Assembly (NCBI GenBank): GCA_937910235.1 | Contig: CALENB010000430.1 | Span: 1 to 38,536, forward strand | Length of the DNA: 38,536 nt | Reading direction: 5' to 3' | From: an uncultured Myxococcales bacterium | GTDB taxonomy: Bacteria > Myxococcota_A > UBA9042 | In this document: positions 1 through 12,634 of the stretch, piece by piece | Position numbering within the stretch: position 1 is the first letter of the stretch | How the letters are laid out: the number at the start of each line of letters is the position of its first letter | Translations under genes and position numbers: made by a program | The notes under the pieces: model-generated | The model's input: only the letters and a program-made list of their open reading frames with translations | Told to the model about the DNA's origin: nothing | Database searches by the model: none

Positions 1-55
1 TGTTCGCGAGACTGCCTGGTCTACCGTCATGGACGAAACGATGATCGAGGCCCAC
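1..55 (-). CDS. Possible 5' end of a further minus-strand gene (truncated)
   Basis: After the ctaA stop at 103-105 the minus strand offers two unfinished starts. A GTG at 55 is preceded by a good GGGAGG (62-67) six bases away. An ATG at 30 in another frame would begin M-T-V-D-Q-A-V-S-R-T. In many bacteria the gene after ctaA encodes protoheme IX farnesyltransferase (ctaB/cyoE), so either could be its N-terminus. Too little sequence is present to identify the product or choose the frame. Confidence 0.25.
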   Translation of the reverse strand, partial: MGLDHRFVHDGRPGSLAN

Positions 56-2088: not shown

Positions 2089-3267
2089 ATGGCACAGCAC
2101 GCCCCCGCGACAGGTCCCAGCATCGTGTTCTTCTCTGGCGGCACCGCCTTGCGCGGTCTCAGCCGAGCGCTGCTGACCCACACTTGGCGCTCGGTGCACC
2201 TGCTCACCCCGTTCGACTCGGGCGGCTCGTCGGCGTCGCTTCGGTCGGCCTTTGGCATCATCGCCGTCGGGGATCTGCGCAACCGCATGGTCGCGCTCGC
2301 AGACCCTGATCGGCCCGGTTTCATGGCGGCTGCGGCGCTGTTGGCGAGGCGGTTGCCGGTGCGTGGCACGCCCGAGCGCAACGCCGCGGCGCTGGCGGCG
2401 ATCGGTGCGGGCACCAGCCCCGAGATTCCTCACCTGGCGCCGACCGTCGCTGCTGCCGTGCAGGCCGATATGGCGGCGTTTATCGTCGCCATGCCGGATG
2501 ATTTCGACCTCGGCGGCGCGAGCATTGGCAACCTGCTGCTGGTCGGCGCGTGGCTGCGAAGCGCCCGGCAAATGGCGGTCGCAGTCGAGCGCTGGTCACA
2601 GCTGATGGATGTGCGCGGCGTCGTTCGGCCGGTTGTGGAGGCGGACTTGCATCTGGCTTTTGACCTCAACGACGGCTCGTTCGTCGTCGGTCAGCACCGG
2701 GTGACCGGCAAGACCTGCGCGGCCCCGGTCGCCACGATCCGTGACGTGAGATTGATCCGCGGCCTCGATGATCCGGCCCCAGCCACCGCGCAGATCAGCG
2801 AGGATGTGACCGCGATGGTCCACGGCGCGGACCTGATCTGCTACCCCATGGGATCGTTTTACTCGAGCGTGCTCGCCAACCTCTTGCCCGGCGGCGTCGG
2901 GGCGGCGATCGCCAACGCAGCGTGCGCGAAGGTGTTTGTGCCCAACACCGGCCACGACCCGGAGCAGCGCGGTCTCAGCGTCGCCGAGGCCACGCGGCGT
3001 CTGGTGGACACAGCGCTCGCCGGGATCGCTGAGGCGCCGTCAGCGTCGCCCTATCGCCCTTCCGTTCATGACGTGCTCGATGCGGTGGTGGTCGATAGCG
3101 AGACCGGCGTGTACCCCGCAGGGCTTGACCTCGATGGCGTCCGCGCGCTGGGATTGAAGGTCATCGACATGCCGCTGGTGACCCGCAATTCGGCGCCAGG
3201 GCTCGACCCGAACCGGCTCGCCAGCCTGCTCGTGCGCCTCGCTGGTGCCCGTATTCGGAGGGCCTAA
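2089..3267 (+). CDS. CofD-like protein of the GAK-system type (YvcK/CofD fold)
   Basis: The product is 392 residues from the ATG at 2089, which places the first beta-strand close to the N-terminus. A GTG at 2056 in frame is the alternative, and neither has a strong ribosome binding site. The N-terminus has FFSGGTALRGLSRAL followed by LTPFDSGGSSASLR, the nucleotide/phosphate-binding pattern of CofD and YvcK proteins. LICYPMGSFYSSVLANLLPGG and VFVPNTGHDPE further on also match that fold. CofD transfers 2-phospholactate in F420 synthesis, and YvcK binds UDP-sugars. The sequence FDSGGSSASLRSAFG is closest in my memory to CofD-related proteins of the GAK gene system (ATP-grasp, amphi-Trp, HPr-kinase-like). 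No such partner is seen here, so substrate and role are open. Confidence 0.75.
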   Translation: MAQHAPATGPSIVFFSGGTALRGLSRALLTHTWRSVHLLTPFDSGGSSASLRSAFGIIAVGDLRNRMVALADPDRPGFMAAAALLARRLPVRGTPERNAAALAAIGAGTSPEIPHLAPTVAAAVQADMAAFIVAMPDDFDLGGASIGNLLLVGAWLRSARQMAVAVERWSQLMDVRGVVRPVVEADLHLAFDLNDGSFVVGQHRVTGKTCAAPVATIRDVRLIRGLDDPAPATAQISEDVTAMVHGADLICYPMGSFYSSVLANLLPGGVGAAIANAACAKVFVPNTGHDPEQRGLSVAEATRRLVDTALAGIAEAPSASPYRPSVHDVLDAVVVDSETGVYPAGLDLDGVRALGLKVIDMPLVTRNSAPGLDPNRLASLLVRLAGARIRRA

Positions 3268-3349: not shown

Positions 3350-6300
3350 ATGAAGTTGAATCGTGCCGTGTTGCAGGATGGATCGCGTTCTGTCGCCCGG
3401 CTTGACCCCACGGCGTCAGCGCTGCCTTGGCAGGGTTATGTCGCGCAGGGTCTGCGCCAGCAGGGTCTGCGCCAGCAGGGTCTGCGCCAGCGGGGTCTGC
3501 GCCAGCAGGGTCTGCGCCAGCCGGGACTTCTCCAACAGATGCTGCCGCCGCTGGTGCTCGCGCCGCTGGCGCTGCTGATGCTCGCGAGCGGCTGCGGCGA
3601 GCCCAACGAGATCAAACCGAGCGACGTCGGCGCCGCCGACACCGCGACGACCGACGACGCTGGCGCGGTGGCCGACACCGGATCCTCGCAGGATGATGTG
3701 TCCTCCGACACCGCGAAGGCTGACATCGCAGCCCACGACGGTGGTGCGGCCGACGTCGGCGCTGATGTGTCCGGAGATCCGGGGCTGAAGACCTTGTGTG
3801 ATCCGTGCACCCTCTCGAGCCAGTGCGGCGCTGCCGGGGACGCGAGCGCTCGGTGCGTGGACCACGACGGCAACGGTGCGTTCTGTGCCATGGCGTGCGG
3901 CGACGCAGACGCGTGCCCGCTCAAGTACACCTGCCGATCGGTCACGACCATGGAGGGCACCAAGGCGAGCCAATGCGTGCCGGAAGGGGCGAAGGCGACG
4001 GTGTTCGGGGCCTGCAACTGCTCGACAGAGGCGATCAAGGCTGGAAAAAAGACGTCCTGCTCTGTGACGTCGTCAGTCGACGGCAAATCGGTCACCTGCT
4101 ACGGCGAGCGCGCCTGCGAGAAGGTCGGCCTGAGCTCGTGCACGGCGTCCGCCCCGACCAAGGAGGTCTGCGACGGTCTCGACAATGATTGCGATGGCAG
4201 CACCGACGGCGGCACGTGCGATGACGGTGACGCCTGTACGCTGGATATCTGTGACGGAAAGGCCGGAAAATGCGCATCAAAGCCCAACGCCGGACCCTGC
4301 AACGACGACAACCCCTGCACCACCGGCGAGACGTGCTCGGGCGGCGCGTGCAAGGGCGGCGTCGCCAACGCGTGTGACGATAAAAACCCCTGCACCACAG
4401 ATGCCTGTGACAAGGCGGTCGGGTGCCAGCACGCGGCGATTGCGGGATGTAAGGCGTGCACGGCGTCGAGTCAGTGCAATGACGGCGACGCCTGCACTGC
4501 CGACGCCTGTAGCAACAAGAACTGTTCGTTTACGCCCAAAGTGTGCGACGACAACGACAGCTGCACGACGGACGCCTGCTCGCCTGAGAAGGGGGATTGC
4601 ACGTCGGTCTTCAACAAGAGCGTGTGCAGCACCGCCAAGCCGCTGTCCCTCCCATTCATGGCGAGTTTTGGTTGTGGCGACGCCTCCGCCGCGCTGTGGA
4701 CGCTCGACAAGCCAGCGACCGCGGGCGCGCCGGCCTGGGGATTCGACGACACGCCTGCGTTGCCAGCGCCGTCCTACAAACCCTGCAGCTTGAACTTCAA
4801 CAACGGCACTGATTTTCAGTGCACGGCAGGCGCGACGGCGGTCTCAGGTGCGGCTATGTCGCCATGGATTGACGCTACATCGGTGCCCACCGCGGGCAAC
4901 CTGCGCATGCGCGTGCGGTTCGGTGGGACGTATGAGCGCAACAACAATGACGAGCTGTTTTTCGAGGCCTCCGTGGACGGCAAGACCTGGACGACGCTCT
5001 ACGACGCCAACGGGATGACCACGACGTCGCAGTGGAGCGAGCCAAACGTCAGCCTGAGTGTCATGGAAGGCAAGATCTTCCGGGTGCGTGTTCGCTTCTT
5101 CACCAACAACTGCACGGCCAACACGGGGACCGGGCCCTTCATCGACCGCGTCTGGATCAACGATGACGCCTGCTACGCCCACGACGACTGCACCGGCGGC
5201 AGCGCGTGCTCCGTGCGCCGTTGCGTGAATCAGAGCTGCCAGGGGCTGAACCCCTGCAATGACTTCAACGCGTGCACCAGCGACAGCTGCAACAGCGCCG
5301 ACGGGAGCTGCAAACACGGCGCCGTGAACGGCGGCAAGCCTTGCGAGGACGGCGACTCCTGCACCGTTGGCACCTTGTGCACGGCTGGCGTCTGCGCGGG
5401 CGGCACTACGGCAAAGGACGGAGACGTCTGCGACGACGGCAACGGCTGCACACCGAATGGCGTCTGCAAGGGCGGCGACTGCAAGGCGGCGGTCATCTGC
5501 GACGACGCCAACACATGCACTGTCGACAGCTGCGACCCGCTGCTCAACAAGTGCGTCTTCCTACCGGCGTCGGGCAGCTGCGACGACGATGATCCATGCA
5601 CGACGAAGGACAGCTGCGCCAAAGGGTTCTGCGCTGGCGAGGCCAAAAGCTGCGACGACAGCGACCCGTGCACCTCGGATACCTGTGCGATCACCGGCGG
5701 CGCTTGCACCCACGTCGCGGACACGTGTGACGACGGCGACTCCTGCACCATCGACAGCTGCAACAAGGCCTCTGGCGCGTGCAGCCACAGCGCCGATAGC
5801 GCGTGCGCCGCGGCGGCGAAGTTGCCCTACACACAGCCGTTCGATTGCGGCGGGAAGCACAGCTGGGCCCTCACGGGTACATCCGGCGGACCGACCTGGG
5901 CTGTCGACGCGACCCCAGCTGTACCGGTGCCCTACACGGGGGCATGCGCCCTGAACTTCAACAACGGCAAAGACTTCGCGTGCCCGGCTGGCGCGACGAA
6001 GGTGGAAGGTACGGCCACGTCGCCGTGGCTCGACGCGACGGCCGCACAGACGACATACATGCGCCTGCGATTTCGCTTGGCTGGCTCGTGGGAGTCGAAC
6101 AACGACGACGAGTTCTACGTGGAGGGCACCACGGACGGCACGGTATGGCAGAAGATCTGGGACGCCAGCAACACCAACACCACGAGCTGGCAGTACCCGC
6201 AGCTCGGCCTTGGCCAGTACCTAGGCACGAAGTTCCGCCTGCGTTTCCGGTTCTTCAGCGCGGACTGCACAGACAATGGCGGCACGGGTCCGTTCATCGA

Positions 6301-9300
6301 CGACGTCCGAGTCGAAGATCTTGGTTGCCTCCTCGACAAAGACTGCGACGACGGCAGCGCCTGCACGACGCACAGCTGTAGCAGCAACGGCTACTGCTCG
6401 AACGTCGGCAAGAACTGCAACGACGACAACCCGTGCACGACCGACACCTGCAGCGCGGCGACAGGCGCCTGTGGTCATACGTTCCTAGCTGATGGCTACG
6501 GATGCAGCGACGGAGACGTCTGCACCGTTCAGGACAAGTGTCACAGCGGCAAATGCTACGGCGTGCCGAGCGCGTGTGATGACGGCGACGCCTGTACGAC
6601 AGATCTGTGCGATGTGCAGGTCGGCTGCCTGTACAAGCCGGTCTGCGATGACGGCGACGGCTGCACTCTCGACATCTGCGATCCTGGGACCCAAAAATGC
6701 AGCGTAAAGGCCGTGATTGCGGGCGCGGCGTGTGAGGACGGCGACGCCTGCACCGGTGGCGAGCTGTGCGGCGCGAAGGGCTGCGTGGGTGGCGTGGTGA
6801 GCGTCAGCGGCACAAACGCGTCGTACTCCACAGTGAGTGACGTCGCCGTTCACAGCACCGGGGCCGTGTTCTTCACGTCGATCGGTTACCATCGCATCTA
6901 CAAGCTTGAGGGCGCGACCGCGGTCGTGATCGCCGGTACGAGCAGCGGCTACGTGGACGGAGCTGGCACGCAAGCGCGGTTCAACTCGCCGCGCAGCTTG
7001 GACGTCGATCCGGCTGGCAACTTGTTTGTGGCGGACTCCAGCAACCACCGCATTCGCAAGGTCGACACCAAGGGCGTCGTGAGCACGCTCGCCGGCAGCA
7101 CTGGCGGCTTCACCGAAGGCGCAGCTGGCCGGCTCAACAACCCGTACGGCGTCGCCTTGGACAGCAAGGGCACCGTGTGGGTCGCAGACACCTACAACTA
7201 TCGGATTCGCAGATTGGGCGGCGCTGGCAGCGTCATCACCATCGCGGGTAGCGCGTCGGGCGGATTCGCGGACGGGCAGGGCGCTGCGGCGCGATTTAAC
7301 CAGCCGATGGGCATCGATTTCGACGCGGCGGACGCGCTCTACGTCGCCGATAGCTACAACTACCGCATTCGGAAGGTGACACCGACGGGCCTGGTCACCA
7401 CCGTCGCCGGGAGCGGCACCAACGGCTTCATCGACGGTCCGGTCGCCTCCGCGCGCTTCTATCGACCGTGGGATGTGCAAGTCGCCGCTGGCGGCGGGCT
7501 TCTCGTGGCGGACGCGTACAACTATCGTGTGCGCCGCATCACGGCGACCGGGTTGGTGAGCACCCTGGCGGGCCAGTCGAGCGGTGGGTACACCAACGGC
7601 CCCGGCGTCTTGGCGCGCTTCAACCGACCGACCGGGATCGCGACTCACAAGGATGGGACGATCTACGTCGCCGACATGTACAACGGCCGGATTCGCACCC
7701 TGACTGTGACGCCAGGCGACGGCGCGACGCTGTGCGACGACGGCAACGCGTGCACTATCGACGCGTGCGACAAGCTCGCCGGGGCCTGCAGCAACAAGGC
7801 CAAATCGAGCTGTGATGACGGCAAAGCGTGCACAACGGATGCGTGCGACCCCTTGTCGGGCGCGTGCATGAACACCCCGGTGGCCTGTGATGATGGCGAC
7901 TCGTGCACGGTCGACAGCTGCGCCGCGGCGACGGGCGACTGCGCACACGTGGCCGGGACCTGCAGCGACGTGGTGACGCAAGACGGCTGGAAGCAGGCGT
8001 TCACCTGCAGCGCCGCGTCGCTGCAAGGCTGGACCCTGACCGGCGCGGGCGGCCCCAAGTGGGCTGTCGACAAAACGCCCGACAAACCGGCTCCGGTGAG
8101 CCCAGACTGCACCCTGAACTTCAACAACGGCACCGACTACACCTGTGCGGCCGGCGCCAAAAACGTGGAAGGAAGCGCCACGACGCCTTGGCTCGATACG
8201 TCGAAGATGGTCGCGGGCGGGCAGGTCCGAGTGCAGTTTCGCTACTCCGGGCGTTGGGAGACCAACAACAACGATGAGCTGCTGGTCGAGATCACGACGG
8301 ACGGCACCACCTGGTCGCTGCTCGCCGACCTCAGCTGGGGCTCCTCCGCGAGCTGGGGCACCTATAACGGCCTGCGATCTGGGGTCGGGGGCGGCAAGAT
8401 GAAGCTGCGATTCCGCTTCGTCACGACCGACTGCAAGCTGAACGGCTGGCAAGGCGCATTCATCGACAACCTGGTGATCAGCGACGAGAGCTGCAAAGCG
8501 GCCAGCGACTGCGGCGACGGCAACGCTTGTACGACGGACAGCTGCAACAGCGCCGGCGCCTGCACTTACGGCGGCCTCAGCTGCAACGATGGAAACGCCT
8601 GCACTGATGACAGCTGCAGCGTCCAGTGGGGTTGCCAGCACAAGGTGAAAGTGGACGGCACGCTCTGCTCGGATGGCGACACCTGCACCACCAATGATTC
8701 GTGCCTCCAGCAGCAGTGTGTCGGTGTCCCAAGCGGCGTCGAGGGCAGCTCGTGCTCCGACAGCTCAAATTGCACCGGCGGCGACACCTGCACCAAGGGT
8801 AAGTGTGTCGGCGTGTCCATGTGTCACGACGGCAACGTCTGCACGAAGAACGGGTGCAGCAGCGGCAACTGCACGTTCACGCTCGACCCCAAGCTCTGCG
8901 ATGACGGCAAGCCGTGCACGGTGGACGTCTGCGATGGCAACGACGGCGGCTGTAAACACAGCGACGATGCCTGTGATGACGGCGACAGTTGCACCGTCGA
9001 CAGCTGTGACCCCAAGTCCGGGGCGTGCACCTTCGCGAAGGGGACGTGCGGGGCCAACGACAAGCCGACGGTGCCGTGGCAGGCCGGATTTGCGTGTGAT
9101 GGCAGCGGCAAATCGCAGTGGACGCTGCAGAACGTGAGCGGCGGCGTCGGCTGGGCGATGGACAAAACGCCGCTACCGCCCAAACCTTATGTGGGCGACT
9201 GCTCGCTGAACCTCAACGACGGCACCAAGCTGAGCTGTGACGCCGGCCAGACGAGCATCGTGGCCTACGCCATGAGCCCTTGGATCGACGCGACGCTGAT

Positions 9301-12300
9301 CCCGCAGCTCGACAATCAGCTGCGGGCGAGGTTTCGTGCGACGGGCACGATGCCAAACACGGGGCTGATCTTCCGTTTGGAGGCGACGCTCGACGGCAAG
9401 GCGTGGACGAACCTCTATAATCTCGGAAATGTGGGCACGACGACCGCTTGGTACGAGCGCGTGGCGAGCCTGTACAGCTACGCGGGCAAGGTCTTCCGCT
9501 TGCGTTACCACTTTGAGCTCCCGTGCGCGGGGCTCTCCGGGAGCGGCCCCTTCATCGATGCGCTGTCTATTCGCGACGAGCGCTGCCAAGGCGACAGTCA
9601 GTGCGACGACGGCAACGTCTGCACACAGAATCGGTGCCTGAACGGGGCCTGCTCGTTCCCCGGTGTCACCTGTGACGACAACAACCCGTGCACCTCCGAT
9701 AGCTGCAGCGCGTCCTTCGGCGGCTGCCGCAACATCCCGCGTGCGGACACGTACGCCTGCGGTGACACGGGCGGTTGCGTCGAGCATCGCTGTCTTGCCG
9801 GCGCTTGTGCGCAGCAGAACAAGACCGAGGGACAGGCTTGCAGCGATGGCGACACCTGCACGTCCGCTGGCAAATGCACGTCGGGATCTTGCGTGACCAC
9901 CGTTGTTGGGGCGACGTCGGCGCCGTGCTCGGACAACGATCGCTGCACCACCGATGACCGTTGCGGCAGCAGCGGGTGTACGGGCAAAGTTGGCACGGTG
10001 ACCACGGCCTCCGGCGCCTCGCTCAGCTCGCCGGGCGGCGTGGCGCTGGACGCGCAGGGACGTGTCTACATCTCAAGTCAGGGCCACCATCGCATTCGCC
10101 GCTTTGAGAACGGCACGTTGGTAGACTTCGCCGGCAGCAGCGGCGGTCTTGTCGATGGACCCAAGGCCACAGCGCGGTTCAATCAGCCCTGGGGCCTCGA
10201 TGTCAGCGCTAAGGGCGAGGTGTTCGTCGCCGACGCCAACAACCACCGCGTCCGCAAGATCGACGTGGCCGGCAACGTGACGACGCTAGCCGGAAGCGGC
10301 CAGGGCTTCCTCGATGGCCCTGGCGCCAGCGCCAAGTTCTATCGACCGCAGGACGTCGCGGTCGACGGCAACGGCCTTGTGTATGTCGCGGACACGTACA
10401 ACAACCGCATTCGCCGCGTGGCGACGAACGGCGTGGTCACCACGGTCGCAGGCTCCGGCGCGACCGGTTTCGCGGACGGCAAGGGCGTCGCGGCCAAGTT
10501 CTACCGCCCCGGCGGCGTGGCGCTGGATGGCGCGGGCGTGCTCTTTGTTGCGGACACCTACAACAGCCGCATCCGGCGCGTCGCTTCGGACGGCACGGTG
10601 ACGACCTTTAGCGGTACCGGCAGCGCCAGTCACAGCGACGGGGCAGCCACCGTCGCGCGCTTCAATCGACCCTTTGGCATCACGTGGGGCGGCGGTGATT
10701 TCTATGTGGCGGACTACTACAATCACGACATCAGGCGCGTCGACCCCAAAGGCCAGGTCAGCACGCTCACTGGGCGGCAGGGGTACGGCAACGTGGATGG
10801 CGTCCTCTCCGGCGCGCGGTTGGCCTATCCACTTGACGCGTTGGTGGACGCCGCAGGCACCATCTACGTCGCTGACGGCAGCAACTCTCGGATGCGCCTC
10901 ATCAAGTTCGGCGGCGGCGACCTCTGTAACGACAGCAAGGCGTGCACCAACGACGCGTGCCTGACGACCACTGGACTGTGCGACAACGGTCCCAAGGACT
11001 GCGACGACGGCAGCGCCTGCACCCTCGATACATGCGCCGTCAGCACGGGCACGTGTGCCCACAAGACCTACGGGTGCGACGACGGCAACCTGTGCACCGT
11101 AGACGGCTGCGACGCGCTACTAGGCTGCAAACACAGCCTCAAAGCCGGCTGTGAGGACTGCGACGACGCCAGCGACTGCGACGACGGCAAGCCATGCACC
11201 AAAGATGGCTGCGATGCGGCGACCGGCTGCGTCCACCCAGCGATCGCGGGGTGTCTGGGCTGTACGACGGCGGCGAGCTGCGACGACGGCAACTCCTGCA
11301 CGGTCGACGTCTGCAAGGCCGGGGCGTGCGGCCACACGCCGGCCCTCGACGGCAGCTGGTGCAGCGATGGCAGCTTGTGCACGGGGGATGACCACTGCCA
11401 GGCGGGCCAGTGCACGGGCGCCGTCGCGACGCTCGACTACTTCGCGGGCGCGCCGGGTCAGACCGGCACGACGGATGGCATTGGCGACCAGGCGCGCTTC
11501 AACGTGCCGCTCGGTGTGACGTGGCACGCCGGGCTCGGGCAGCTGATCGTCGCTGGCGGACTGGGTCATCGGGTTCGTCGTGTGTTGCCTAGTGGGCAGA
11601 CGGTTCGCTTGTCGGGCTACAACGTTGGGTACAGCGACGGCAGCCTCACCAGCAGCGGCACGCGCTACAATCGTCCGGCCGACGTGGCGGTGACGCCGGA
11701 CGGGATCGTGTGGGTCGCCGATGAGCTCAATCACCGCTTGCGCCGGTTGGACCTGATGAAGACCAACCTCGTCAGCACCGTCGCAGGTAGCGGCAAGCCT
11801 GGTTTTGCGGACGGAAAGGCGGGCGTCGCGTTGCTCGCGTACCCGCGCGGCGTGGCGGCGTCCGAGGCTGGCATGGTGCTGGTCGCTGACAGCGGCAACC
11901 ATCGGATCCGGCAGTATCAGCCGACGAACGGCGCGCTGTCGACGCTGGCCGGCGCGATCGCCGGGTTTGCGGACGGCAGCGGCAGCGCAGCAAAGTTCAG
12001 CAATCCAACGGGCGTCGATGTCGACTCGAAGGGGCGCATCTTCGTGGCGGATCGTGGCAATCATCGCATTCGCCGCATCGTCAGCGGTGTCGTGACGACG
12101 GTCGCCGGTGGGAGCGCCGGTTTCGTCGACGGGGCCGGCGCCCAGGCGCGATTCAAGTCACCGGGCGATGTCATCGTCTCGCCGGCTGGCGTGCTCTTTG
12201 TCGCCGACACGGGCAACCACGCTCTCCGCCGGATCTCGCCAGCCGGCCAGGTCGCGACCGTCGCGGGTGGCACCGCCGGGTCCATCTCCGGTCCATTGGC

Positions 12301-12634
12301 GCTGGCGCGATTGAACGGCCCCGAAGGGCTCGCGCTGGGTACAGACGGGGCGCTGTGGGTCGTTGAGCAGGGCAGTCACACCGTCCGTCGCCTGCAGACC
12401 ACCAACAGCCTGTGTGGCGACGGGATGACGTGCGCGGGCGACGTCTGTGATCCGAAGAGCGGCGCGTGTATCTACGCGCCGGCGCTCGGCACGTCGGGCT
12501 GCGATGACAACAACCCGTGCACGGCCGACGTCTGCCTGCCGTGGTCCGGTAACTGCCTACACGCGCCGATCCCACAGGGTACAAGCTGTGGTGGCGGCGC
12601 TGTCTGCGACGCGGGCGCCTGCGAATCCAAGTAG
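3350..12634 (+). CDS. Giant modular lipoprotein: Cys-rich CTDC-type repeats, four jellyroll-like modules, three NHL propellers
   Basis: The product is 3094 residues. The ATG at 3350 is chosen for GGGGGAG seven bases upstream; an in-frame GTG further upstream (3245) would overlap the CofD-like gene. The signal is long: an Arg-rich n-region built from GLRQQ repeats (34-60), a hydrophobic segment (64-78) and lipobox LASGC (Cys82). Next come an acidic tether (about 85-146), a Cys-rich domain (148-270) and a MopE-like motif EVCDGLDNDCDG. The rest alternates about 40 CDDGxxCTxDxC repeats (Dicty_CTDC-like) with modules in this order: J1 431-608, J2 824-994, NHL1 1153-1457, J3 1542-1716, J4 1905-2081, NHL2 2214-2524, NHL3 2694-3021. 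Each NHL block has six blades with VADxxNxRIR cores. The protein is probably displayed on the outer membrane for adhesion or ligand binding. No catalytic motif was seen, so function is unknown. The gene stands alone. Confidence 0.93.
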   Translation: MKLNRAVLQDGSRSVARLDPTASALPWQGYVAQGLRQQGLRQQGLRQRGLRQQGLRQPGLLQQMLPPLVLAPLALLMLASGCGEPNEIKPSDVGAADTATTDDAGAVADTGSSQDDVSSDTAKADIAAHDGGAADVGADVSGDPGLKTLCDPCTLSSQCGAAGDASARCVDHDGNGAFCAMACGDADACPLKYTCRSVTTMEGTKASQCVPEGAKATVFGACNCSTEAIKAGKKTSCSVTSSVDGKSVTCYGERACEKVGLSSCTASAPTKEVCDGLDNDCDGSTDGGTCDDGDACTLDICDGKAGKCASKPNAGPCNDDNPCTTGETCSGGACKGGVANACDDKNPCTTDACDKAVGCQHAAIAGCKACTASSQCNDGDACTADACSNKNCSFTPKVCDDNDSCTTDACSPEKGDCTSVFNKSVCSTAKPLSLPFMASFGCGDASAALWTLDKPATAGAPAWGFDDTPALPAPSYKPCSLNFNNGTDFQCTAGATAVSGAAMSPWIDATSVPTAGNLRMRVRFGGTYERNNNDELFFEASVDGKTWTTLYDANGMTTTSQWSEPNVSLSVMEGKIFRVRVRFFTNNCTANTGTGPFIDRVWINDDACYAHDDCTGGSACSVRRCVNQSCQGLNPCNDFNACTSDSCNSADGSCKHGAVNGGKPCEDGDSCTVGTLCTAGVCAGGTTAKDGDVCDDGNGCTPNGVCKGGDCKAAVICDDANTCTVDSCDPLLNKCVFLPASGSCDDDDPCTTKDSCAKGFCAGEAKSCDDSDPCTSDTCAITGGACTHVADTCDDGDSCTIDSCNKASGACSHSADSACAAAAKLPYTQPFDCGGKHSWALTGTSGGPTWAVDATPAVPVPYTGACALNFNNGKDFACPAGATKVEGTATSPWLDATAAQTTYMRLRFRLAGSWESNNDDEFYVEGTTDGTVWQKIWDASNTNTTSWQYPQLGLGQYLGTKFRLRFRFFSADCTDNGGTGPFIDDVRVEDLGCLLDKDCDDGSACTTHSCSSNGYCSNVGKNCNDDNPCTTDTCSAATGACGHTFLADGYGCSDGDVCTVQDKCHSGKCYGVPSACDDGDACTTDLCDVQVGCLYKPVCDDGDGCTLDICDPGTQKCSVKAVIAGAACEDGDACTGGELCGAKGCVGGVVSVSGTNASYSTVSDVAVHSTGAVFFTSIGYHRIYKLEGATAVVIAGTSSGYVDGAGTQARFNSPRSLDVDPAGNLFVADSSNHRIRKVDTKGVVSTLAGSTGGFTEGAAGRLNNPYGVALDSKGTVWVADTYNYRIRRLGGAGSVITIAGSASGGFADGQGAAARFNQPMGIDFDAADALYVADSYNYRIRKVTPTGLVTTVAGSGTNGFIDGPVASARFYRPWDVQVAAGGGLLVADAYNYRVRRITATGLVSTLAGQSSGGYTNGPGVLARFNRPTGIATHKDGTIYVADMYNGRIRTLTVTPGDGATLCDDGNACTIDACDKLAGACSNKAKSSCDDGKACTTDACDPLSGACMNTPVACDDGDSCTVDSCAAATGDCAHVAGTCSDVVTQDGWKQAFTCSAASLQGWTLTGAGGPKWAVDKTPDKPAPVSPDCTLNFNNGTDYTCAAGAKNVEGSATTPWLDTSKMVAGGQVRVQFRYSGRWETNNNDELLVEITTDGTTWSLLADLSWGSSASWGTYNGLRSGVGGGKMKLRFRFVTTDCKLNGWQGAFIDNLVISDESCKAASDCGDGNACTTDSCNSAGACTYGGLSCNDGNACTDDSCSVQWGCQHKVKVDGTLCSDGDTCTTNDSCLQQQCVGVPSGVEGSSCSDSSNCTGGDTCTKGKCVGVSMCHDGNVCTKNGCSSGNCTFTLDPKLCDDGKPCTVDVCDGNDGGCKHSDDACDDGDSCTVDSCDPKSGACTFAKGTCGANDKPTVPWQAGFACDGSGKSQWTLQNVSGGVGWAMDKTPLPPKPYVGDCSLNLNDGTKLSCDAGQTSIVAYAMSPWIDATLIPQLDNQLRARFRATGTMPNTGLIFRLEATLDGKAWTNLYNLGNVGTTTAWYERVASLYSYAGKVFRLRYHFELPCAGLSGSGPFIDALSIRDERCQGDSQCDDGNVCTQNRCLNGACSFPGVTCDDNNPCTSDSCSASFGGCRNIPRADTYACGDTGGCVEHRCLAGACAQQNKTEGQACSDGDTCTSAGKCTSGSCVTTVVGATSAPCSDNDRCTTDDRCGSSGCTGKVGTVTTASGASLSSPGGVALDAQGRVYISSQGHHRIRRFENGTLVDFAGSSGGLVDGPKATARFNQPWGLDVSAKGEVFVADANNHRVRKIDVAGNVTTLAGSGQGFLDGPGASAKFYRPQDVAVDGNGLVYVADTYNNRIRRVATNGVVTTVAGSGATGFADGKGVAAKFYRPGGVALDGAGVLFVADTYNSRIRRVASDGTVTTFSGTGSASHSDGAATVARFNRPFGITWGGGDFYVADYYNHDIRRVDPKGQVSTLTGRQGYGNVDGVLSGARLAYPLDALVDAAGTIYVADGSNSRMRLIKFGGGDLCNDSKACTNDACLTTTGLCDNGPKDCDDGSACTLDTCAVSTGTCAHKTYGCDDGNLCTVDGCDALLGCKHSLKAGCEDCDDASDCDDGKPCTKDGCDAATGCVHPAIAGCLGCTTAASCDDGNSCTVDVCKAGACGHTPALDGSWCSDGSLCTGDDHCQAGQCTGAVATLDYFAGAPGQTGTTDGIGDQARFNVPLGVTWHAGLGQLIVAGGLGHRVRRVLPSGQTVRLSGYNVGYSDGSLTSSGTRYNRPADVAVTPDGIVWVADELNHRLRRLDLMKTNLVSTVAGSGKPGFADGKAGVALLAYPRGVAASEAGMVLVADSGNHRIRQYQPTNGALSTLAGAIAGFADGSGSAAKFSNPTGVDVDSKGRIFVADRGNHRIRRIVSGVVTTVAGGSAGFVDGAGAQARFKSPGDVIVSPAGVLFVADTGNHALRRISPAGQVATVAGGTAGSISGPLALARLNGPEGLALGTDGALWVVEQGSHTVRRLQTTNSLCGDGMTCAGDVCDPKSGACIYAPALGTSGCDDNNPCTADVCLPWSGNCLHAPIPQGTSCGGGAVCDAGACESK
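3446..3535 (+). repeat. 15-bp tandem repeat inside the signal peptide of the giant lipoprotein
   Basis: Five near-identical units of cagggtctgcgccag occupy 3446-3520; the fourth begins cgggg. A degenerate sixth copy lies at 3521-3535. They encode GLRQQ in frame, adding an Arg per unit to the n-region of the signal peptide. Copy-number change by slippage would lengthen or shorten the n-region by five residues without a frameshift. Confidence 0.95.

Follow-up and report, generated by a model that had tools for sequence, protein, structure and literature searches.

A giant predicted lipoprotein of an uncultured Myxococcota bacterium combines MAM-like and NHL modules with arrays of CTDC repeats

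A gene at positions 3350 to 12634 of a 38,536-nucleotide stretch of DNA from an uncultured Myxococcales bacterium (the window) encodes a 3094-residue protein in which arrays of CTDC repeats are interspersed with four MAM-like jellyroll (J) modules and three NHL propellers behind a lipobox. We consider it likely, with a probability of roughly 0.6, that the product is a giant display fibre anchored by lipid, in which stalks of CTDC repeats keep the binding heads apart and which works as an adhesin or capture fibre. Each part comes from a known family; judged against the literature searched, what appears to be new is that CTDC stalks carry MAM-like J heads together with NHL heads, and how extensively CTDC repeats are used in the host's class of Myxococcota, which to our knowledge has no cultured member.

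The open reading frame lies on the forward (+) strand, as do all features of the gene described below, and translation from the ATG at 3350 to the stop codon ending at 12634 revealed no internal stop. A Shine-Dalgarno-like GGGGGAG is located about 8 nt upstream of the ATG, and an alternative in-frame GTG start at 3245, which would overlap the upstream CofD gene, is less likely. The signal peptide (residues 1–81, 3350–3592) has a long n-region containing an in-frame 15-nt tandem repeat (3430–3534) that encodes five QQGLR-type pentapeptides. These repeats are missing from the ortholog in a congeneric genome (G001), which has a short, ordinary signal peptide, and they therefore likely represent a recent slippage expansion. 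Because the window protein's signal peptide is unusually long, its processing is less certain. The lipobox reads LASGC, with its cysteine at residue 82 after an atypically long n-region, and together with the signal peptide it would place the protein among bacterial lipoproteins. It opens an acidic tether (residues 82–145, 3593–3784) with 15 D/E against 2 K/R between residues 83 and 146. Lipobox and tether had both been recognized in an earlier reading made from the sequence alone (hereafter the sequence-only reading). The pentapeptide repeat had been overlooked, as had two elements that follow the tether: an N-terminal Cys-rich module (residues 146–271, 3785–4162) shared with paralogs, similar segments being present at the N-termini of the L096 and L098 ORFs, and a MopE-like motif beginning at residue 272 with EVCDGLDNDCDG (residues 272–289, EVCDGLDNDCDGSTDGG, 4163–4216). 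The latter scored 23.9 bits against MopE (PF11617; E 4.8e-05), below the cut-off of 27, and is a resemblance only. The protein ends in GACESK, and no C-terminal sorting motif was seen by eye. A 718-aa open frame antisense to the gene (6485–8641, − strand) shows no sign of being a gene and is probably a by-product of high GC content and repetitive coding.

Dicty_CTDC (PF00526) matched the protein in 20 stretches with a score of 302.5 bits (E 2.6e-92; Pfam cut-off 27 bits). About 40 CDDGxxCTxDxC units had been counted by the sequence-only reading, a number that is reproduced with a relaxed motif (40 units), whereas the strict CDDGxxCTxDxC motif accounts for only 13. In 1000 shuffles of the protein the relaxed motif occurred 0.07 times on average and at most twice. 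Every unit has four cysteines, with spacings of 5-4-6, 5-5-4, 5-4-5 or 5-4-4. With c denoting CTDC units and N an NHL propeller, the module order is c5-J1-c7-J2-c6-N1-c3-J3-c7-J4-c5-N2-c6-N3-c1. By motif count, the arrays occupy 4217–4624 (array 0, also matched by PF00526), 5192–5803 (J1-J2), 6347–6778 (J2-NHL1), 7736–7960 (NHL1-J3), 8513–9046 (J3-J4), 9605–9973 (J4-NHL2) and 10928–11407 (NHL2-NHL3), and translation places the last unit in a C-terminal Cys-rich tail that extends, with the stop codon, over 12416–12634.

The J1-J2 array was predicted by AlphaFold2 to form a string of beta-hairpins, one per unit, with a mean pLDDT of 86.4 and a pTM of 0.49, the latter being as would be expected for an extended chain. 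A PDB sequence search with the CTDC array yielded nothing beyond a fibrillin match at chance level (E 0.56), and Foldseek found nothing at E 0.001, its best candidate being an Entamoeba Gal/GalNAc lectin (E 2.4e-3). Among Foldseek's candidates, the best VIA-align score was Z 2.9 (ADAM17), and neither structural result is convincing either way. The AlphaFold2 model of a CTDC stalk is one to which these searches turned up no solved relative, an absence that would not in itself prove a new fold.

The four J modules, correctly read from the sequence as related and jellyroll-like, comprise J1 (residues 426–614, 4625–5191; alignment and J profile), J2 (819–999, 5804–6346; AlphaFold2 and the meprin beta match described below), J3 (1538–1721, 7961–8512; alignment) and J4 (1900–2085, 9047–9604), the most diverged copy as judged by alignment and module tree. 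The NCBIfam model choice_anch_J (NF038128) scored 45.7 bits over the whole protein (E 7.7e-12; cut-off 30) in two stretches, the best of which covers residues 1557–1710 in J3; in Pfam, no family reached its cut-off on the J modules and no MAM domain was detected at the sequence level. J2 and its flanking units were modeled with AlphaFold2 from 50 sequences (pLDDT 91, pTM 0.75). The best solved match to this model was meprin beta (Z 17.8, rmsd 2.5 Å, 153 aligned residues), and the top matches were the MAM domains of meprin, RPTP-mu and neuropilin together with reelin repeats (Z 15–18). The cleaved-adhesin domains K1–K3 of gingipain also matched (Z 13.8, 13.3 and 12.7, respectively), as did CBM4, CBM61 and xyloglucan- and porphyran-binding modules (Z ∼12). 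As modeled, then, J is a MAM-like jellyroll of the choice_anch_J type, and its fold matches are mostly extracellular binding modules. The giant protein resembles choice-of-anchor J proteins and gingipain in these respects, but it has an N-terminal lipid anchor in place of a C-terminal one. With a J profile of our own, the window's four copies scored 295–315 bits and the runner-up J of this genome scored 175 bits, a gap that is partly expected as the profile was built from those four copies; in a tree, too, these copies are separated from other J copies, with support of 88/93.

The carbohydrate-binding matches bear on an alternative in which the J jellyrolls serve as carbohydrate-binding modules and keep polysaccharide from algae or matrix at the cell for feeding, making the protein's role nutritional and not adhesive. 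A paralog (L208) with LamG/ConA-like lectin domains is consistent with this possibility. MAM domains and reelin match the J model better, however, and no glycoside hydrolase domain was present in the giant protein or in the ten window proteins scanned, and we regard polysaccharide capture as a possible but rather unlikely explanation.

NHL (PF01436) matched above its Pfam cut-off with 315.3 bits (E 1.8e-97). The blade motifs recur about every 53 residues, the first or last ones being degenerate, and their spacing indicates six blades per propeller, in agreement with the three six-bladed propellers proposed earlier. They are located at residues 1144–1462 (NHL1, 6779–7735), 2209–2526 (NHL2, 9974–10927) and 2687–3022 (NHL3, 11408–12415). 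NHL relatives in the PDB include teneurin-like and TRIM71 NHL chains, and TEN_NHL (PF25021) also matches the protein. Teneurins are cell-surface adhesion proteins that likewise carry an NHL propeller after Cys-rich repeats; the giant protein differs in having three propellers and an unrelated anchor, and no YD-repeat shell was found in it.

The order J-J-NHL-J-J-NHL-NHL, first read from the window alone, is confirmed and recurs in two congeneric genomes. In G003 (contig C215; L091/L111) the 5′ end of the gene runs off the contig edge, each module from J1 to NHL3 is present, and TPMT and part of HAD lie downstream. In G001 the ortholog is split between contig C51, which has CtaA and CofD upstream and continues through the first half of NHL2, and contig C239, where NHL3 and the remaining half of NHL2 lie at the contig end and are followed, as in the window, by TPMT, HAD, AAT, TatD and fructosamine kinase. 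The window belongs to a draft genome in 593 contigs, and the giant gene is full of repeats, conditions under which an assembly chimera or a fusion of two genes might be suspected. Since the same order lies between the same neighbours in two congeneric genomes (CofD in G001, TPMT and HAD in both) and the giant frame is uninterrupted, we attach next to no weight to this explanation, and an assembly merge is excluded by the independent genomes and their synteny.

Identity across the three species ranges from 54 to 76% per module, about the same rate as for housekeeping neighbours (62–80%). The J modules are 61–76% identical, NHL1 and NHL2 62–75% and the stalks 62–71%; the lowest value belongs to NHL3, which is 54% identical to its G003 ortholog. 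That heads and stalks are similarly conserved argues against a hypervariable recognition receptor and favours a binding partner that is itself conserved. This is relevant to TraA, a myxobacterial cell-surface receptor of Myxococcus xanthus in which Cys-rich repeats have been hypothesized to form a stalk and which has a PA14-like variable domain, involved in recognition, and MYXO-CTERM sorting (PMC6372800). If the giant protein were a TraA-like self or kin receptor, polymorphic heads on a Cys-rich stalk would mediate homotypic cell-cell recognition. The stalk-plus-head logic is the same (PMC6372800), and the paralog set described below is large. A polymorphic recognition domain should, however, outpace the stalk in divergence, and none of the heads is hypervariable, with NHL3 as a possible exception, so this reading is very improbable. 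The giant protein further differs from TraA in its lipobox and its MAM-like and NHL heads; Pfam gave no PA14 match, and there is no C-terminal sorting tail.

In module trees the three species' copies of J1 form one group (100/100), and the same is true of J3, J4, N1 and N2, and of N3 for the two species represented; the J2 copies lie close together, that of G003 without firm placement. This position-wise clustering means that the layout is, according to these trees, older than the split of the three species, and no recent internal homogenization was seen. The sequence-only reading had taken the layout to suggest that a J-J-NHL block underwent segmental duplication, considered here as a tandem event. 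Such a duplication predicts that J1 is nearest to J3 and J2 to J4. In the window, however, J1-J2 (431) and J2-J3 (399) score above J1-J3 (377) and J2-J4 (324), in both relatives J2-J3 ranks first among the J pairs, and the spacers preceding NHL1 and NHL2 are not each other's closest by spacer score. The J positions form separate clades whose order the tree does not resolve, and the best tree joins J1 with J4 (80/82). The repeated J-J-NHL order itself favours duplication, as do the alike unit counts between modules (7-6 versus 7-5) and the closest NHL pair, N1-N2, the only pair to fit (49% identity; other pairs 41–43%). With AU p values of 0.23 for J1+J3 and 0.18 for J2+J4, duplication survives both tests and is not rejected. 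On balance the sequence comparisons lean against it, and we consider a block duplication unlikely.

How might the parts work together? In a display fibre, Cys82 would fix the N-terminus to the membrane, presumably on the outward-facing side of the outer membrane, with the acidic, flexible tether leading away from it. The CTDC arrays would then serve as disulfide-stapled stalk segments, each unit a short beta-hairpin with four cysteines (5-4/5-4..6), that hold apart seven heads, the four MAM-like jellyrolls and three six-bladed propellers. The heads could bind other cells, matrix or polysaccharide, with multivalency giving high avidity, and the protein would belong to a set of CTDC-stalk proteins found throughout the class, in which heads are exchangeable and lipoproteins are numerous. 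We infer that an adhesion or binding role, as suggested in the sequence-only reading, is likely. Several considerations weigh against a display fibre, the less certain processing of the long signal peptide among them. Generic folds such as the NHL and MAM-like ones do not reveal function by themselves. The neighbouring genes (CtaA, CofD, TPMT, HAD, AAT, TatD, the kinase and molybdopterin-domain genes) are housekeeping genes that provide no functional hint, and no functional partner was found among them.

The abundance of CTDC proteins in the host genome was estimated from 40 contigs chosen by number (445 kb). Seven ORFs with at least 3 CTDC units make up 5.2% of this DNA, with none in shuffled ORFs; scaled up from this small count, the whole genome would contain very roughly 110. 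The heads of CTDC ORFs in this genome include NHL and RCC1 propellers, J or InhA-like MAM modules, LamG/ConA-like domains and CARDB. A crude scan found a lipobox in 23 of 34 such ORFs, and many carry both a lipobox and an acidic tether. The pairing of CTDC repeats with NHL propellers had been called unusual, and at least 8 further ORFs of the same genome have both; it is the presence of a MAM-like J together with NHL in one protein that looks unique, at the thresholds used and among the matches listed. Two paralogs, L094:263-7852 (−) and L093:2073-9812 (+), have RCC1 propellers in place of NHL on CTDC stalks, and L093 adds a J module. In a further CTDC lipoprotein, L199:3-7688 (−), an MG2 domain accompanies at least 14 CARDB stretches, which makes another giant surface-type architecture. 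Four adjacent CTDC ORFs of ∼2100 aa each (L190 and L191, G000:C524:12000-36000) suggest tandem duplication of entire giant lipoprotein genes.

In a sample of 285 genomes from the phylum, first-look CTDC candidates number 799 to 2412 per genome in the host's family, 77 to 1838 in other families of its class, and about 2 to 170 in the rest of the phylum, with one genome at 284; although such candidates are counted loosely and fall short of confirmed repeats, the contrast is large. At E 0.001, 99 of the 285 genomes had no CTDC match, and none of 14 control genomes matched. By these counts, the host's class has undergone a huge expansion of CTDC repeats, which are otherwise scarce in the phylum. 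The named relatives are mostly genomes from lake, groundwater and other environmental metagenomes, labelled Myxococcales or Deltaproteobacteria. No account of such a system emerged from the literature searched for CTDC in bacteria, Cys-rich lipoproteins of Myxococcota and lipoproteins with NHL. A slime-mould matrix repeat is massively used by an uncultured class in which giant proteins swap heads on a common stalk, and the CTDC-stalk proteins offer a defined group of candidate adhesins of this class that can be put to the test.

Dictyostelid CTDC proteins, of which D. discoideum has 11–14, are matrix proteins, ecmA and ecmB being examples (PMC4931340). The window protein and the ecmA/ecmB/psi family have in common Cys-rich arrays, in the former presumably extracellular, of repeat family PF00526, a likeness that consists of a Pfam score, 24-residue repeats carrying little signal on descent. 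The giant protein differs in being bacterial and in its lipobox and MAM-like and NHL heads, and the extrapolated number of CTDC ORFs in its host exceeds that of D. discoideum. By analogy with the dictyostelid proteins, and given that CTDC ORFs make up ∼5% of the sampled DNA, the arrays might cross-link into an extracellular matrix or sheath, the heads being secondary. The lipobox argues otherwise, as do heads that constitute more than half of the sequence and are conserved in order and identity, and a purely structural role is improbable. That CTDC repeats are a general outer-membrane stalk toolkit of the class, with on the order of 100 swappable-head lipoproteins per genome, is well supported by the sequence surveys. 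The wider proposal, that this toolkit also shares its ancestry with the slime-mould repeats through transfer between bacteria and dictyostelids, is doubtful; the question raised is whether two groups with well-known social lifestyles converged on the repeat or passed it from one to the other.

Two irregular records were encountered among the J-containing sequences. In paralog L030 (G000:C329:26980-27480) the J-containing frame is broken by one in-frame TAG, possibly marking a pseudogene or a gene boundary. A record titled as a Klebsiella pneumoniae MAG (L113, CAMDBH010000092.1) encodes a CTDC-plus-J protein of the Myxococcota type, and is most likely mislabelled or mis-binned.
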